Origin: Bacteroidetes bacterium GWF2_33_38
GTDB lineage: Bacteria > Bacteroidota > Bacteroidia > Bacteroidales > GWF2-33-38
Length of the DNA stretch: 49,083 nucleotides
Assembly: GCA_001769505.1 (NCBI GenBank)
Contig: MEOF01000021.1
Location: 1 to 49,083, forward strand
Direction: 5' to 3'
A program made the translations under genes and the position numbers. The notes beneath the pieces were generated by a model that was given only the letters and a program-made list of their open reading frames with translations, did no database searches and was not told where the DNA came from. Below are positions 4,365-49,083 of this stretch, piece by piece. Position 1 is the stretch's first letter. Each line of letters opens with the position of its first letter.

Positions 4365-4495
4365 GAGACTGTGTAAAAAGTCAAGTTTTTTTGTCATTCT
4401 GAACGTAGTGAAGAATCTAAATGATTAAAATATAACACATTAAGATTTCTCGCATTCGCTCGAAATGACAAGCTAGACACTTTTTATAAAGCCTC
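4365..4495. repeat. MITE-like nested palindromic element
   Basis: Outer inverted arms lie at 4365-4382 (GAGACTGTGTAAAAAGTC) and 4476-4495 (GACACTTTTTATAAAGCCTC). Nested inside are arms at 4393-4418 (starting GTCATTCTGA) and 4443-4469 (ending CGAAATGAC). The inner pair resembles a hairpin type widely dispersed in bacterial genomes. No coding potential was seen. The element lies between the PNP gene and the T9SS gene, and its hairpin may also stop PNP transcripts. Confidence 0.65.
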
Positions 4496-4520
4496 CTTTC
4501 AACTATAATTTAAAAGAAAC

Positions 4521-5336
4521 TTATAACGATTTAATCAATTCTGTAAAAATCAAGGTCATTTTAGGTTCAACTGAACCTGCAACATCTTGAACTTCGTCGT
4601 GTGTTGTTTCTCCGTTAGGGTCGGCAGGTTCGCTACCATTTGTAATTACCGACATCCCAAAACATTTTATTCCCATGTGATGAGCCACAATAACTTCAGG
4701 CACTGTTGACATTCCGGTAGCATCAGCACCAAATTTATGAAATAATCTATATTCGGCAGGAGTTTCTAAGGTTGGACCTGAACTTCCAATATAAATTCCT
4801 TCTTGAACCTTCAAATTATTTTGTTTCGCTATTTCTTTAGCTTTTGCAATCAATTCACGATTGTATGTTTTGCTCATATCAGGAAACCGTGGACCTAATT
4901 CATTATAATTTTTACCAATTAGCGGATTGGTCGGGAAATAATTAATATGGTCGTTGATAATCATCATATCTCCTGCTTTAAAGTCAGGATTTAACCCACC
5001 AGCCGCATTTGATACAAATAAATATTTTACACCTAAAAATTTCATAACCCTTACAGGAAATGTAACAACGTCCATTGGATATCCTTCGTAAAAATGAAAT
5101 CGACCTTGCATAGCAACTACATTTTTTCCACCCAATTTTCCAAAAACCAACTTTCCACTATGCCCTTCGACCGTAGAAACCGGGAAATTAGGAATATTTT
5201 TATACTCAAAGGCAATGGCATCTTCTAATTTATTTGCTAATCCGCCTAAGCCACTTCCCAAAATAATTCCTATTTCAGGCTCGTTTTTAATTCTTTCTTT
5301 TAAGAAAGTCGCTGTACTTTTAAATTTTTCTATCAT
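4521..5336 (-). CDS. punA: Purine-nucleoside phosphorylase, trimeric (class II PNP/MTAP superfamily)
   Basis: The enzyme cleaves inosine or guanosine (or deoxy forms) with phosphate to give the free base and (deoxy)ribose 1-phosphate in purine salvage. The 271 residues match the usual length of trimeric PNPs. Visible landmarks are the phosphate loop GSGLGG (27-32), VEGHSG with His59, QGRFHFYEG (77-85), SNAAGG (109-114), ETPAEY with the base-binding Glu191, GMS (208-210) and ITN with Asn233, the Asn expected for 6-oxopurine nucleosides. It is divergent from the deaminase gene at 5530, and both act on purine nucleosides. The start at 5336 gives a normal N-terminus. Confidence 0.92.
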   Translation of the reverse strand: MIEKFKSTATFLKERIKNEPEIGIILGSGLGGLANKLEDAIAFEYKNIPNFPVSTVEGHSGKLVFGKLGGKNVVAMQGRFHFYEGYPMDVVTFPVRVMKFLGVKYLFVSNAAGGLNPDFKAGDMMIINDHINYFPTNPLIGKNYNELGPRFPDMSKTYNRELIAKAKEIAKQNNLKVQEGIYIGSSGPTLETPAEYRLFHKFGADATGMSTVPEVIVAHHMGIKCFGMSVITNGSEPADPNGETTHDEVQDVAGSVEPKMTLIFTELIKSL

Positions 5337-5529
5337 ACTGAAAATCTTTCATTAGTGATTTTTTTAAACCGAGTTTAAAAAATTATAATTAACTTTGCTA
5401 AATTTTATCTACTAAAGATTAAATAAATTGCTTAGCAAATTAATAAAAAAATATTTAAAATAAAAATACTTATTATTTATATCAACTTATTTTACTGATA
5501 ATAAGACTGATACATTAAACGAATAAAAA

Positions 5530-6888
5530 ATGAAATTTGATTACAAAGGAGCACAAAAAGTAGACCTCATTATTGAAGGAGGTATTATTGCAACAGTTAA
5601 CGATAAAACAGGTATCGTAAGTAAAGACAAAGTTATAGTTATTGACAAAACTAAAATCATATTTGTTGGAAATAAAACCGATGCTATAAATGTTTATTCA
5701 GCAAATGATGTGATTGATGCATCAGATAAATTAGTATTACCTGGCTTGGTTAATTCGCACACACATACCCCAATGACATTGTTTCGCGGAGTTGCCGACG
5801 ATATTGTATTAAAAGATTGGCTTTACGAATATGTTTTTCCACTCGAAGCAAAATACATCAATAAAGAGAATACTCGATTAGGGGCAAAACTTGCATTTAT
5901 TGAGATGATTAGAACAGGGACAACCACTTTCAATGATATGTATTATTTTACCGACGATATTGCTCAAGTTGCTGAAGAAGCTGGTTTACGAGCTGTTTTA
6001 TCCGAAGGTTTAATTGACTTTCCATCGCCGAACACAAAAACGCCGGAAGAAGGCTTTAAATATACCGAAGACCTTTTGAATAAATACAAAAACAACGAAT
6101 TAATTACCATTGCTACGGCTGCTCATGCTCCGTACACTTGTTCACCCGAATTATTAAAAAAATCGAAAGCATTAGCCGATAAATATAATGTTCCTTATCA
6201 CATTCACCTTTCAGAAACGGCTTGGGAAGTTGGAATCATTAAAGAAAAGTATGGAAAAACACCTACGCAGCATTTAGATAATTTAGGAATCCTTGGCGAA
6301 AACGTAATTGCAGCACATAGCGTACATCTCACCCCTGAAGATTTGAAAATATATGCAAAAAGAAAAGTTGGCGTAGCTCACAATCCTCAATGCAATATGA
6401 AACTTTCGAGTGGTGCTGCTCCAATTCCAGAAATGTTGGCTATGGGTATAAAAGTTGGATTGGGAACCGATGGAGTTGTTAGCAACAACGATTTAGATAT
6501 GTTTGGCGAGATGAAAACTTGCTCGATTTTACACAAATTTGTTAGCAATAATCCTACCGTAACAAGTGCAAAAACAGTTTTTGAACTATCAACACTTGGA
6601 AGTGCCAAAGTGTTAGGCATGGAGGATAAAATTGGTTCGATTGACGTTGGTAAAAAGGCTGATTTAATTATTATTGACTTACATAGACCACATTTAACTC
6701 CAATGTATAATTTATATTCTCAAATCGTATTTGCCATGAAAGGCAGCGACGTTGAAACGGTTATCGTGAATGGTAGAATAATTATGAAAGAAAATAAATT
6801 ATTAACTATTGATGAAGATAAAGTTATCGCTGAAGTTAATGAGTTTGCCAAAGAAATTAAAACATTGAAAAAATATAAACTTGATTAA
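5530..6888 (+). CDS. mtaD: 5'-methylthioadenosine/S-adenosylhomocysteine deaminase-like amidohydrolase
   Basis: This 452-residue metal-dependent hydrolase belongs to the TrzN/ATZ/MTA-SAH deaminase group of the amidohydrolase superfamily. The metal site is visible as HTHTP with His77 and His79, a later HIHLSETAWE segment, AAHSVHL, and GTDGVVSNNDLDM carrying the catalytic Asp. The family removes the amino group of S-adenosylhomocysteine, methylthioadenosine or adenosine. Placement opposite a purine nucleoside phosphorylase suggests deamination followed by phosphorolysis of the inosine-type product. The exact substrate cannot be told from sequence, and some relatives act on guanine or cytosine derivatives. 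The next gene begins 6 nt after the stop, so the two are probably co-transcribed. Confidence 0.85.
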   Translation: MKFDYKGAQKVDLIIEGGIIATVNDKTGIVSKDKVIVIDKTKIIFVGNKTDAINVYSANDVIDASDKLVLPGLVNSHTHTPMTLFRGVADDIVLKDWLYEYVFPLEAKYINKENTRLGAKLAFIEMIRTGTTTFNDMYYFTDDIAQVAEEAGLRAVLSEGLIDFPSPNTKTPEEGFKYTEDLLNKYKNNELITIATAAHAPYTCSPELLKKSKALADKYNVPYHIHLSETAWEVGIIKEKYGKTPTQHLDNLGILGENVIAAHSVHLTPEDLKIYAKRKVGVAHNPQCNMKLSSGAAPIPEMLAMGIKVGLGTDGVVSNNDLDMFGEMKTCSILHKFVSNNPTVTSAKTVFELSTLGSAKVLGMEDKIGSIDVGKKADLIIIDLHRPHLTPMYNLYSQIVFAMKGSDVETVIVNGRIIMKENKLLTIDEDKVIAEVNEFAKEIKTLKKYKLD

Positions 6889-6894
6889 AAAATT

Positions 6895-7683
6895 ATGAAA
6901 TTCGGGATAGCCAACATCAGTTCAATTCCTTTACGTCGTGAACCTGCAGAATCGAGCGAGATGATGACCGAAATATTGTTCGGCGAACATTTTGAAATAG
7001 TTGAATTAATTGATCGTTGGGCAAAAATTAAACTGAATTTTGATAATTACATTGGATGGATTGACAAAAAAATGATTCAAGAAATCACGGAAGAATTTTT
7101 CAATGGAATTACACAGAACAATACTTTTGTAAGCCAACTATTTATCAATAACATTGAAAATAAGAGTACAAAACAAACTTTTTATATCGGCGGAGGTAGT
7201 TCGTTCCCATTTTTTAGAAACGAAACAAAATGTTTCTTTTTAGGCGAACACGAATACGAACTGCTCGAAGATATTAAAAGTTGTTCGTCATGCGATATTC
7301 GAAAGCGAATAATTGATTCGGCGATGCAATATATGAATAGTGCGTATTTGTGGGGAGGACGCAATCCGTTTGGAATCGACTGTTCGGGCTTAACACAAGT
7401 CGCGTATAAAATACACGGAATCAATATTAATCGTGATGCACGAAAACAAATTGAACATGGGTCAAATATTGACTTTATCGACAATGCAAAAAATGCTGAC
7501 CTTGCTTTTTTCGATAACAGTGATGGAATTATTACTCATGTTGGATTAGTTCTTGAAGGAGGAAAAATTCTTCATGCTTCGGGGAAAGTTCGAATTGACA
7601 AACTCGACCACCAAGGAATTTATAACGAAGAACGAAAAATATATACTCACAAGTTGAGAATGATAAAAGACATTTTGGGATAA
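6895..7683 (+). CDS. NlpC/P60 (C40) cell-wall peptidase with N-terminal SH3-type domain
   Basis: This 262-residue protein has an SH3b-like N-terminal half and a C-terminal NlpC/P60 papain-like domain. The catalytic triad is visible: Cys163 in GIDCSGL, His215 in ITHVGLV and His227 in ILHASG. The layout resembles YkfC-type gamma-D-glutamyl-L-diamino acid endopeptidases of Bacteroides, which trim peptidoglycan peptides during recycling. I see no clear signal peptide from the chosen ATG, so the protein may be cytoplasmic and act on recycled muropeptides. It starts 6 nt after the deaminase stop and its end converges with the PAS gene, leaving a 17-nt gap. Confidence 0.88.
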   Translation: MKFGIANISSIPLRREPAESSEMMTEILFGEHFEIVELIDRWAKIKLNFDNYIGWIDKKMIQEITEEFFNGITQNNTFVSQLFINNIENKSTKQTFYIGGGSSFPFFRNETKCFFLGEHEYELLEDIKSCSSCDIRKRIIDSAMQYMNSAYLWGGRNPFGIDCSGLTQVAYKIHGININRDARKQIEHGSNIDFIDNAKNADLAFFDNSDGIITHVGLVLEGGKILHASGKVRIDKLDHQGIYNEERKIYTHKLRMIKDILG

Positions 7684-46817: not shown

Positions 46818-46934
46818 GAAGAAAGAACAGCAAAATTTTTTTAAATTTGACAAAAAATATTATTTGGCTAACATCCTTATAACCAGAACAATTTTTAAGA
46901 TAATTTCTTAAAAAAACACTTTAAAGCTCATTCC

Positions 46935-46969
46935 TCTTGTTTACCTTTATCAAAAAATTACTCTATATA
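46935..46969 (+). promoter_or_regulatory. Bipartite promoter-like motif, copy 1 (before the sigma gene)
   Basis: TCTTGTTTACCTTT (46935-46948), an 11-nt spacer and ACTCTATATA (46960-46969). The same two boxes with the same spacer length occur at 48353-48387. A small inverted repeat CTCT...AGAG covers the second box. The ATG of the sigma gene is 1 nt further on, so a start site here would give a leaderless mRNA or a later start codon. Confidence 0.6.
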
Positions 46970-46970
46970 T

Positions 46971-47429
46971 ATGAAGAGGGACTATTCCGATGAGCAGGTA
47001 ATAAATGGAATCAAAACAAGAGACAATCTTGTGTTGAAATACTTGCTTGACGAATATCTCGAAAAGGTAATAAAATATGTAACACGTAATAATGGGACAA
47101 AACAGGAAGCTGAAGATGTCTTTCAGGAAACAATAGAAATACTATTTCACGAAGTACGAAAAACCGACTTCAGCCTGAAAAAAACATTTGACGCATACTT
47201 CACCGTAATATACCAAAACATATGGATACAAGAAGCAAAAACAAAGAACAAGCAAAAAACAACAAATACATTCCCCGAAACACTAGTTTACGAAGAAACA
47301 GACCTGCAAGATGAAATCAAACAAGAAAAACTCCGGATACTCGCAAAAGAAGAATACACAAAACTCGACAAAGAATCAAAAAACCTGTTAGACCTGTTTA
47401 TTATAAAAAAAAGACAATGGCAGAAATAG
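46971..47429 (+). CDS. ECF-type RNA polymerase sigma factor, region 2 part (frame-changed at an A-run)
   Basis: This 152-residue frame holds sigma region 2: KYLLDEYLEKVIKYV, then GTKQEAEDVFQETIEILF and a helical segment to FTVIYQNIWIQ. Region 4, needed to bind the -35 DNA, is cut off: after LDLFIIKK the frame ends at WQK. The missing part continues in the -1 frame from the A8 run at 47405-47412 (next entry). ECF sigmas with a TM/TPR partner are common in Bacteroidota. The gene uses many C-ending codons (tac, ttc, gac) and ata for Ile, unlike the SIR2 gene behind it. The start at 46971 sits inside the promoter-like motif. Confidence 0.8.
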   Translation: MKRDYSDEQVINGIKTRDNLVLKYLLDEYLEKVIKYVTRNNGTKQEAEDVFQETIEILFHEVRKTDFSLKKTFDAYFTVIYQNIWIQEAKTKNKQKTTNTFPETLVYEETDLQDEIKQEKLRILAKEEYTKLDKESKNLLDLFIIKKRQWQK

Positions 47430-47548
47430 CATACAAAATGGATTACAAAGACGGAAAAACAGCAAAAACACTAAAATGTAGAGCAGTTGCTAAATTAAAA
47501 GACATAATAAAAACAACCACCATATTTAAAAAACTGCAAGATGACTAG
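47405..47548 (+). other. Sigma region 4 in the -1 frame after an A8 slippery run
   Basis: The heptamer A AAA AAA at 47405-47411, in the zero frame set by codon ATA, is a classical -1 slip site. Reading on in the -1 frame gives KTMAEIAYKMDYKDGKTAKT and then LKCRAVAKLKDIIKTTTIF, a typical region 4 helix-turn-helix tail, ending at TAG 47546-47548. That stop overlaps the next gene's start (ATGACTAG), the usual sign of translational coupling, so the -1 frame is biologically plausible. A one-base sequencing or assembly error in the A-run explains it equally well. Confidence 0.7.
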
Positions 47549-48347
47549 CGAAGAAATAACCATACTAATAGAAAGCTATCTCGACGGAGAACTCTCAGAG
47601 CAGGAAAAACAGGAATTTGAGCAAAAGCTCAAAACAGACAAAGAACTAACCAACGAATTAATGCTGCACAAAGCAATCAGAAGTGCAATAGGCGATAAAG
47701 AATACATAGACCTAAGAGAAAAACTCGAAAAAATCAAGCACGAATACCACGAAAAAGCAAAAGTAAAAAAAAAGAAAAAACAAATAGCAGCATATTCGAT
47801 TAGCACTCTAATTTCAGTAATAATAGCAAGCACATTCATTTTCTACGATAAAAGCTACACCTACGACGAACTATACGACAAGTATTACGAGCATTACGAT
47901 GCCGGAACCATTACAAGAGGCGAAGTAAAACCAACAAAAGAAATCTACACAAACGCATTAAGAACCTATGATAACGGAAACTATACCGAAGCCATAACAC
48001 TATTAGAACAAATAACCGACACATCAGCATTTTATCCATCCAAAGAATACTTCACAGCCTTATCCTACATGGAGCTAAAAAACTACTCCGAAGCCATAAA
48101 ACACTTTGAGCAAGTACAAAACAGCAAACAATGCATTTATTCTGACAATGCCACATGGTATACTGGACTCTGTTACCTGAAAACAAATCAAACCGAAAAA
48201 AGCAAAGCAACAATTCACAAACCTGAAAAACTGTTCTGCATATTTTCAGAAAAAATCCGAAGAAATTTTGAAAAAATTTCAATAATTTTTTCATCTGCAA
48301 TCATCTCATATTCAATATCTCTAAAATTAATTTTAAAGAATTCTTGA
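47541..48347 (+). CDS. Membrane TPR protein with anti-sigma-like N-terminus, C-terminus frameshifted
   Basis: Residues 1-60 (TILIESYLDGELSEQEKQEFEQ...) resemble the N-terminus of anti-sigma factors but without the zinc Cys/His. A basic KKKKKQ stretch and one membrane helix (SISTLISVIIASTFIFY, about 90-108) follow, then TPR-like repeats (YTNALRTYDNGNYTEAITLLEQI; YFTALSYMELKNYSEAIKHFEQV). From residue 220 the frame turns unlike the family. Dropping one A from the A6 run at 48196-48201 restores EKAKQQFTNLKNCSAYFQ and a stop at 48283-48285. The protein probably controls the sigma factor that it overlaps. Whether the shift is real or a homopolymer error cannot be told. Confidence 0.75.
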   Translation: MTSEEITILIESYLDGELSEQEKQEFEQKLKTDKELTNELMLHKAIRSAIGDKEYIDLREKLEKIKHEYHEKAKVKKKKKQIAAYSISTLISVIIASTFIFYDKSYTYDELYDKYYEHYDAGTITRGEVKPTKEIYTNALRTYDNGNYTEAITLLEQITDTSAFYPSKEYFTALSYMELKNYSEAIKHFEQVQNSKQCIYSDNATWYTGLCYLKTNQTEKSKATIHKPEKLFCIFSEKIRRNFEKISIIFSSAIISYSISLKLILKNS

Positions 48348-48352
48348 TTTTT

Positions 48353-48387
48353 TCTTGTTTACCTTTTTGATTTTTTGACTCTATATA
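48353..48387 (+). promoter_or_regulatory. Bipartite promoter-like motif, copy 2 (before the SIR2 gene)
   Basis: TCTTGTTTACCTTT (48353-48366), an 11-nt spacer of different sequence, and ACTCTATATA (48378-48387). Both boxes are identical to copy 1 at 46935-46969. A CTCTA...TAGAG inverted repeat covers the second box. The leader to the SIR2 gene would be about 90 nt and contains a 23-codon ORF. Confidence 0.65.
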
Positions 48388-48427
48388 AGTAGAGGATAAA
48401 ATTACTAAACATAAATTATAATTACCT

Positions 48428-48499
48428 ATGCAAGTAAATTACGGAGTAAGCGAAATTAAAAAACTTGAAAAAAGATTATATGAACCAATTACAATTTGA
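48428..48499 (+). CDS. 23-codon leader ORF overlapping the SIR2 start
   Basis: ATG at 48428 opens a 23-codon frame (MQVNYGVSEIKKLEKRL, then YEPITI) that ends at TGA 48497-48499, 20 nt beyond the SIR2 ATG at 48480. Its composition is ordinary protein-like, so it may be a leader peptide coupled to SIR2 translation or the remnant of a gene that once followed the sigma/TPR pair. No family was recognised. Translation is unproven. Confidence 0.3.
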   Translation: MQVNYGVSEIKKLEKRLYEPITI

Positions 48500-49034
48500 T
48501 GAATTTTTAAGATCTGTAGCGATAAGCAAAAACGACACTTATGCCATTTTATTAGGAGCAGGTTGCTCAATTAGTTCAGGGATTCCTTCTGCAAATGATT
48601 GTATTTGGGATTGGAAAGGTACAATCTATAAGAGTAACAATTCTTCAACTAATGATTGGATTGATAATTTCAGGAATCCCAAAGTGCAAAAAACGATACA
48701 ATCTTGGCTAGATAATCAAGGCAGTTATGTTGAATTCGGGTGTAAAGAAGAATATTCTTTTTATGCAAAAAAGTGTTTCCCAATAGAGAAAAATCGTAGT
48801 CAGTACTTTCAGAAAATATGCTCAAATGTAAAACCAGCAATAGGATATAGAACAATACCATTATTGGTTAAACATGGATTACTTGATTCTGTATGGACTA
48901 CAAATCTTGATGATTTAGTAATGAATTCATGTGTATTAGGCGGTGTACAAGGAATTGAAATTTCATTAGATACTGTAGAAAGAATTAATTGTAAATTCCG
49001 ACCAAATAGACCACCTAAATCCAATTTAAATTGA
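48480..49034 (+). CDS. SIR2-domain protein, 5' fragment interrupted by an insertion sequence
   Basis: I start at ATG 48480 (MNQLQFDEFLRSV); a TTG at 48465 is also possible. The N-terminal Rossmann motif LLGAGCSISSGIPSA and the later TTNLDDLVMNS mark a SIR2-type NAD-binding fold. SIR2 domains of this kind are N-terminal NADase effectors in anti-phage systems, often joined to STAND or other large domains. True coding ends at about LDTVERIN (48989); the last 14 residues (CKFRPNRPPKSNLN) come from inserted DNA, so the remainder of the protein is lost. Its codon use differs from the sigma/TPR pair. Confidence 0.8.
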   Translation: MNQLQFDEFLRSVAISKNDTYAILLGAGCSISSGIPSANDCIWDWKGTIYKSNNSSTNDWIDNFRNPKVQKTIQSWLDNQGSYVEFGCKEEYSFYAKKCFPIEKNRSQYFQKICSNVKPAIGYRTIPLLVKHGLLDSVWTTNLDDLVMNSCVLGGVQGIEISLDTVERINCKFRPNRPPKSNLN

Positions 49035-49083
49035 CCACTTCAAGCAGTCGAAGTTGACCACTAACAAATTCACCTTAAAAAAG
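48990..49083 (+). mobile_element. Terminus of an IS21-like insertion sequence (partial)
   Basis: From 48990 the DNA begins TGTAAATTCCGACCAAATAG, and GACCA recurs four times (49000-49004, 49009-49013, 49033-49037, 49056-49060), the last two inside TTGACCACT. A TG start and several internal GACCAC-type repeats are the usual end structure of IS21-family elements in Bacteroidota. The transposase genes would lie beyond the window. The junction falls inside the SIR2 gene. The family assignment rests on pattern memory. Confidence 0.6.

Follow-up and report, generated by a model that had tools for sequence, protein, structure and literature searches.

The motif TCTTGTTTACCTTT-N11-ACTCTATATA (14 + 11 + 10 nt), present without mismatch at 46935-46969 and 48353-48387 of the window (the whole 49,083-nt stretch of DNA analysed here), is most likely the on-switch through which an accessory sigma factor would activate its own gene and its targets. 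From the comparisons described below, we consider it highly probable that these copies are promoters with a -35 element (TTACCTTT) and a -10 element (CTCTAT) read by the ECF-type sigma factor whose gene starts at 46971, that the operon of this gene and the adjoining TPR gene is autoregulated, that a target transcript begins beyond the TPR gene, that contigs C67 and C20 hold further targets, that the TPR protein is an anti-sigma factor, and that the locus has decayed (Table 1). The first copy would thus drive the sigma-TPR operon and the second a target transcript just past the TPR gene, and at least two further sites (C67, C20) would drive genes for secreted or surface proteins. Until an envelope signal arrives, the sigma factor is most likely kept in check by the membrane-anchored TPR protein; once freed, it would act on its own operon and on the targets. 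With 1-4 nt between the -10 box and the start codon, the sigma mRNA would be leaderless or nearly so. Use of the sites by RNA polymerase with this sigma factor, the anti-sigma role of the TPR protein and the envelope signal are what we infer; the sites themselves, their spacing, their conservation and their place before genes are observed directly.

Table 1. Features of the sigma-TPR locus and of the adjoining contig end (window coordinates).
Feature	Position	Strand	Basis
TAnnTTTG match, possible second, basal promoter of the sigma gene	46842..46849	+	Pattern scan; consensus match only
Box 1, proposed -35 element (core TTACCTTT), sigma-gene copy	46935..46948	+	Exact match; order-wide TTACC before sigma
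11-nt spacer with A-tract	46949..46959	+	A common at +13 to +15 in order-wide promoters
Box 2, proposed -10 element (CTCTAT), sigma-gene copy; ends 1 nt before sigma start codon	46960..46969	+	Exact match; family sites
ECF-type sigma gene, open frame with region 2	46971..47429	+	Sigma70_r2 E 6.5e-7; three-frame reading; orthologues intact
Membrane TPR protein, proposed anti-sigma factor	47541..48347	+	Domain scans, relatives, structure model
Box 1 (-35), output copy	48353..48366	+	Exact match
11-nt spacer with T-tract, output copy	48367..48377	+	Sequence; family-site spacers
Box 2 (-10), output copy	48378..48387	+	Exact match
5' remnant of ancestral target gene (ORF from 48430, MQVNYG...)	48426..48472	+	84% identity to GWA2_31_9 locus L080 2774-2823, E 1.8e-9
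SIR2 domain, N-terminal fragment of SPARSA-like SIR2/pAgo protein	48483..48989	+	PADLOC pAgo model E 1.7e-76
Dispersed repeat copy, cuts SIR2 gene, ends contig	48984..49083		C14, C5 and C6 copies 95-100%; C19 and C41 93-94%

Both copies reported in the earlier note are exact. No third copy was found in the 49,083-nt window when up to 3 mismatches were allowed, and 100 dinucleotide shuffles of the window gave no match. The genome-wide search with inspection of downstream genes that the earlier note had proposed yielded four sites at no more than 1 mismatch in the organism's own genome (3.93 Mb, 70 contigs), each before a gene: the two window copies, an exact copy on C67 and a copy with 1 mismatch on C20. 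The genes behind them are the sigma gene, the ORF on the SIR2 side, a gene for a T9SS-sorted protein (C67) and one for a lipoprotein resembling GLPGLI/PNGase-F-II-N proteins (C20). The earlier note had also named membership in a longer copied repeat as grounds for refuting its reading. As to the two window copies, this idea was rejected: they are unlike outside the boxes, to which their similarity is confined, and are therefore not a longer repeat of each other. It does apply to the second copy and the one on C67, which share a 255-bp repeat of 78% identity spanning the 3' end of the TPR gene, the intergenic stretch and the motif; the 11-nt spacers of these two copies are identical.

Orthologous sigma-TPR loci were found in two metagenome-assembled genomes of the same family, GWA2_31_9 (MEND01000222.1) and GWA2_30_7 (MENC01000209.1). 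In both, GTTACCTTT-N11-ACTCTATA lies directly before the sigma gene, with a second copy some 70 nt beyond the TPR stop codon. At no more than 1 mismatch, the three family genomes hold 11 sites (4, 4 and 3), versus 7 in 57 other relatives; a reversed-pattern control gave 9 matches over all 60 genomes and none in the three family genomes. All eight exact sites in the 60 genomes fall within the family. With patterns loosened to 2-3 mismatches, control matches became as numerous as real ones. Every one of the 11 family sites precedes a gene on the same strand. Besides sigma genes, those behind the relatives' sites include a lipoprotein-like gene, a gene of at least 775 codons, a LytTR gene and a membrane protein gene; a paralogous sigma gene on C271 of genome G002 has a second site, some 210 nt upstream. 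The twin promoters of the relatives' loci L080 and L081 score better on their boxes than all of 60 shuffles, and they fail in free local alignment (equalled by 52 and 37 of 200 shuffles) because their spacers differ. Contrary to the earlier note, the spacer is not free: all 11 family sites carry an A- or T-tract of 5-8 nt in it.

The same arrangement was traced through the order. A TPR profile search had matches in 135 of 393 genomes, and 83 oriented loci were drawn (3 from the own genome, plus 20 and 60 from the top of two match lists, with enough contig room required); 66 were kept and 17, in which no sigma ORF was detected, were dropped. The pentamer TTACC occurs 25-49 nt before the sigma start in 38 of the 66 loci (40 occurrences), compared with 0-3 occurrences in every other 25-nt bin to -600 and 4 occurrences of the reverse-complement control GGTAA in the same bin. 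Some further loci have GTAACC or TTACT as the box, and 14 of the 66 lack any such box. In 37 loci aligned on TTACC, TTTT follows immediately, an A-tract lies in the spacer (A at +13, +14 and +15 in 34, 32 and 30 promoters) and GATwAA appears at +20 to +25 (G in 27 at +20, and A in 31, 30 and 28 at +21, +24 and +25). In this logo the TTACC columns are fixed by selection and the A-tract and -10 columns are free of it; its rows are related rather than independent. The window promoters keep the order's -35 box and spacing, with CTCTAT in place of GATwAA in the sigma and target copies alike. Because the -10 box thus varies by lineage, being CTCTAT in the window family and GATwAA in most of the order, the link of the family to the order promoter rests on the -35 box, the spacing and the position. 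The distance from TTAC to ATG is 30 nt in the window and mostly 36-41 nt elsewhere. A twin promoter after the TPR gene was found in only 5 of 53 scored loci; in one locus (L183, contig C43 of G120) it precedes a second, tandem TPR anti-sigma-like gene. Taken together, the conserved boxes, the order-wide position of TTACC and the enrichment in the family lend strong sequence-level support to the earlier proposal of a sigma-factor binding site with autoregulation.

The sigma frame of the window is broken at a run of eight A (47405-47412); beyond it, a different frame carries region-4-like coding as far as 47548. The orthologue at L080 matches region 2 (E 2.7e-8), region 4 (E 1.1e-4, below the Pfam cut-off) and the sigma70-ECF model TIGR02937 (E 1.4e-15, above cut-off). 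Regions 2 and 4 without region 3, the layout of ECF sigma factors, are thus present, although the open frame of the window has region 2 only; the domain scan found no sigma domains other than region 2 in the window protein and regions 2 and 4 in its orthologues. The other ECF hallmark, an autoregulated two-box promoter common to the sigma gene and its targets, is likewise indicated by the motif copies. The TPR protein has a hydrophobic segment near residue 84, and its frame departs from that of its relatives at a run of six A (48196-48201); the homologous frame would stop at 48283-48285. Among the 66 loci, the TPR gene adjoins the sigma gene with a gap of -40 to 60 nt in 58, and a hydrophobic 19-mer is present in all 66 proteins, so that the position next to sigma and the membrane segment of class I anti-sigma factors (ASDIs) are both found. 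The Hx3Cx2C zinc motif, which is not required of every ASDI, occurs in none of these 66 TPR neighbours. Anti-sigma domain scans of 12 members gave zf-HC2 in three (best E 0.0014, below cut-off) and Sigma_reg_N in one. The modelled N-terminus forms helices at residues 3-14, 20-32, 34-51 and 53-72 (pLDDT 70-87 up to residue 40 and 40-61 thereafter), which fits, and does not prove, an anti-sigma domain.

Both frames are intact in the orthologues of the relatives, and the single-base breaks at the two A-runs may reflect decay, slippage or an error of assembly. The window is unlikely to be riddled with sequencing errors, since many long open frames are found among its other genes. A paralogue in genome G002 (L082), whose frame also breaks at a run of eight A, was considered as a parallel case and rejected: that locus contains a run of N, and its frame is therefore uninformative. 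The locus in its own genome looks decayed, with both frames broken and the ancestral target displaced, and because the sigma frame is broken the sites there may be relics.

Two further sigma-TPR pairs exist in the own genome, on C15 and C55, each with its own twin promoters, whose anchors were set by hand. On C15, AAAAAGGTTACCCCC stands before the sigma gene and before a CHAT-domain output gene (box score 33.8, reached by 0 of 60 shuffles; in free local alignment, equalled by 0 of 200). On C55, TTAC-N16-TGTCAT stands before the sigma gene and at the output position; these twins pass in free local alignment, where 0 of 200 shuffles equal them, and fail on the box-only score, which 4 of 60 reach. 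In locus L049 on C15, the twins lie at about 2415-2440 and 4390-4410 and the CHAT-TPR output gene at 4477-7668. Between the TPR and CHAT genes on this contig (G000 C15:4880-5062, minus strand), a small ORF matches the TPR protein in the latter's N-terminal anti-sigma part and nowhere else. A search with the C15-type motif gave one more site in the own genome, on C28; it has 2 mismatches, and no gene was seen close by on its strand.

Clues on the function of the regulon come from genus g7, where the corresponding version of the promoter has 16 sites in 5 genomes (control, 0). All 16 precede a gene: five the sigma gene, four a gene for a secreted protein that lies near sigma or is divergent from it, four a response-regulator receiver gene, and one each gldL-gldM, a C25 peptidase gene and, judged by eye, an acetyltransferase-like gene. 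Two of the four secreted proteins were scanned, both having a T9SS sorting domain, as was one of the four response-regulator genes; T9SS component genes, namely gldL-gldM, stand under the promoter in one of the five genomes. Targets of this kind (secreted or surface proteins and, in g7, GldL/GldM, the C25 peptidase and the response regulator) suggest a type IX secretion or envelope regulon. In the own genome, the C67 and C20 targets alone bear on this, with no further T9SS link. It is tempting to speculate, at slightly less than an even chance, that these pairs form an order-wide, previously unnamed ECF family with membrane TPR anti-sigma factors and near-leaderless sigma mRNAs, which would control type IX secretion (gldLM, C25 peptidase, T9SS-sorted proteins) and a response regulator from the promoter (G)TTACCTTTT-(A-tract)-GATwAA, and that in the window family the -10 box changed to CTCTAT in sigma and targets together, giving a private circuit.

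The gene behind the output copy had been read as a defence-type gene turned on by a dedicated sigma/TPR switch, and it is indeed SPARSA-like in its SIR2 part. The PADLOC pAgo model covers residues 2-169 of its 183, and the domain matches the SIR2 proteins of PDB entries 8jkz, 8jl0 and 8in8 (E 9e-14), each entered as a "Sir2 superfamily protein" and which we take to be SPARSA; the general Pfam SIR2 model stays below cut-off (E 0.059). Unlike SPARSA, the short prokaryotic Argonaute system with SIR2, APAZ and short pAgo (SIR2-APAZ/pAgo), the window gene has only the first ~169 residues, the SIR2 part. A search of the own genome with the pAgo profile hit this gene alone, over profile positions 3-171 of 1030, and detected no remainder of the protein. 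About 14 codons from the start of a different target gene precede the fragment, which is cut at ~48989 by a dispersed repeat that is likely the end of an insertion sequence. Given the remnant upstream, the repeat downstream and the missing pAgo remainder, a defence gene would have landed on the head of the ECF target, displacing it, and would then itself have been cut; as far as sequence can tell, the "defence gene" is a broken late arrival and not an evolved target. The third motif copy, on C67, is preceded by several large genes in a row (L006, 4661-14343), possibly a defence island; among them are a gene for a SEC-C-like protein, recognised by eye, and one for a 1367-aa protein, and PADLOC gave no match for the three proteins tested.

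A dedicated switch for the SIR2 gene is accordingly hard to sustain, and we consider it highly improbable. The output copy is the sole recognised promoter-like element before the SIR2 start: TAnnTTTG, the -7 box consensus of the primary sigma factor, has no match at 48250-48490. Against this stand the truncated state of the fragment behind another gene's 5' end, the broken sigma and TPR frames, the secreted and surface protein genes behind the other sites, and the two relatives with the orthologous locus, which have genes other than SIR2 behind the output copy.

An operator for a repressor or activator, or a leader RNA hairpin, would draw on the CTCT...AGAG inverted repeat over box 2, which was confirmed in both window copies, with loops of 10 and 8 nt as counted on the sequence, but proved not to be general: it is present in 6 of the 11 family sites, the AGAG arm being absent from the other 5. 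It is not a feature of the order-wide promoter, and with 6 of 11 family sites carrying it, it was rejected as the main signal. Its left arm falls within the -10 box, ahead of the point where the transcript is predicted to start, and would not be transcribed; this and the lack of conservation make the hairpin reading weak. The fixed -35/-10 spacing and the position before sigma genes point instead to a promoter, and we regard an operator or hairpin as quite improbable. That the sites are ends or passengers of a mobile or repeated element is exceedingly improbable: the 255-bp repeat and the dispersed repeat at the contig end speak for it, but the similarity of the window copies stops at the boxes, and the sites are kept at orthologous places in two other genomes and before genes throughout the family. 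Promoters read by the ECF sigma factor remain our preferred explanation.

ECF sigma factors of the groups of Staron 2009 and the ECF Hub reportedly have an adjacent anti-sigma gene and an autoregulated promoter. The window resembles such systems in its pair of sigma and membrane protein genes and in the promoter common to sigma and targets, and differs from ECF/class I anti-sigma systems in the neighbouring protein, which has TPR repeats at its C-terminal end and no zinc motif. The usual ECF -35 element is of the GAAC/GTAAC type, unlike the TTACC core found here, although some loci have GTAACC. PMC7406223 reports a class I anti-sigma neighbour for only 6% of the ECFs of Bacteroidetes, suggests that other classes dominate, and gives about 56% as the share of ASDIs with the Hx3Cx2C motif. 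In Porphyromonas gingivalis, the available text of PMC4800418 describes control of type IX secretion by PorXY and SigP, an ECF sigma factor. The g7 promoter, preceding gldL-gldM, a C25 peptidase gene, genes for T9SS-sorted proteins and a response-regulator gene, likewise appears to join an ECF sigma factor to T9SS genes, but the SigP motif in that text (C(T)AAA...) is unlike ours, and the term anti-sigma does not occur in it. In Flavobacterium psychrophilum, the predicted ECF promoter class SM6 precedes an ECF/anti-sigma pair, T9SS genes and a TPR-domain gene, according to the available passages of PMC9723704, which also quote the TAnnTTTG consensus and give 5.5% leaderless mRNAs for a flavobacterium. 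The promoter class described here similarly precedes a proposed ECF/anti-sigma pair with a TPR protein and, in g7, T9SS genes; the -10 of SM6 is a CGT box in those passages, as against CTCTAT or GATwAA here. No description of a TPR anti-sigma factor or a TTACC promoter in Bacteroidetes was found in the licensed PMC literature.

The sigma-TPR pairs are a candidate for a non-class-I type of anti-sigma factor in Bacteroidetes, and since their promoter is searchable, the regulons of unstudied genomes may be read from sequence. A defence gene beside a regulator, as the SIR2 fragment cautions, need not be that regulator's evolved target. The link to type IX secretion, if true, would represent a second kind of sigma control for the T9SS.
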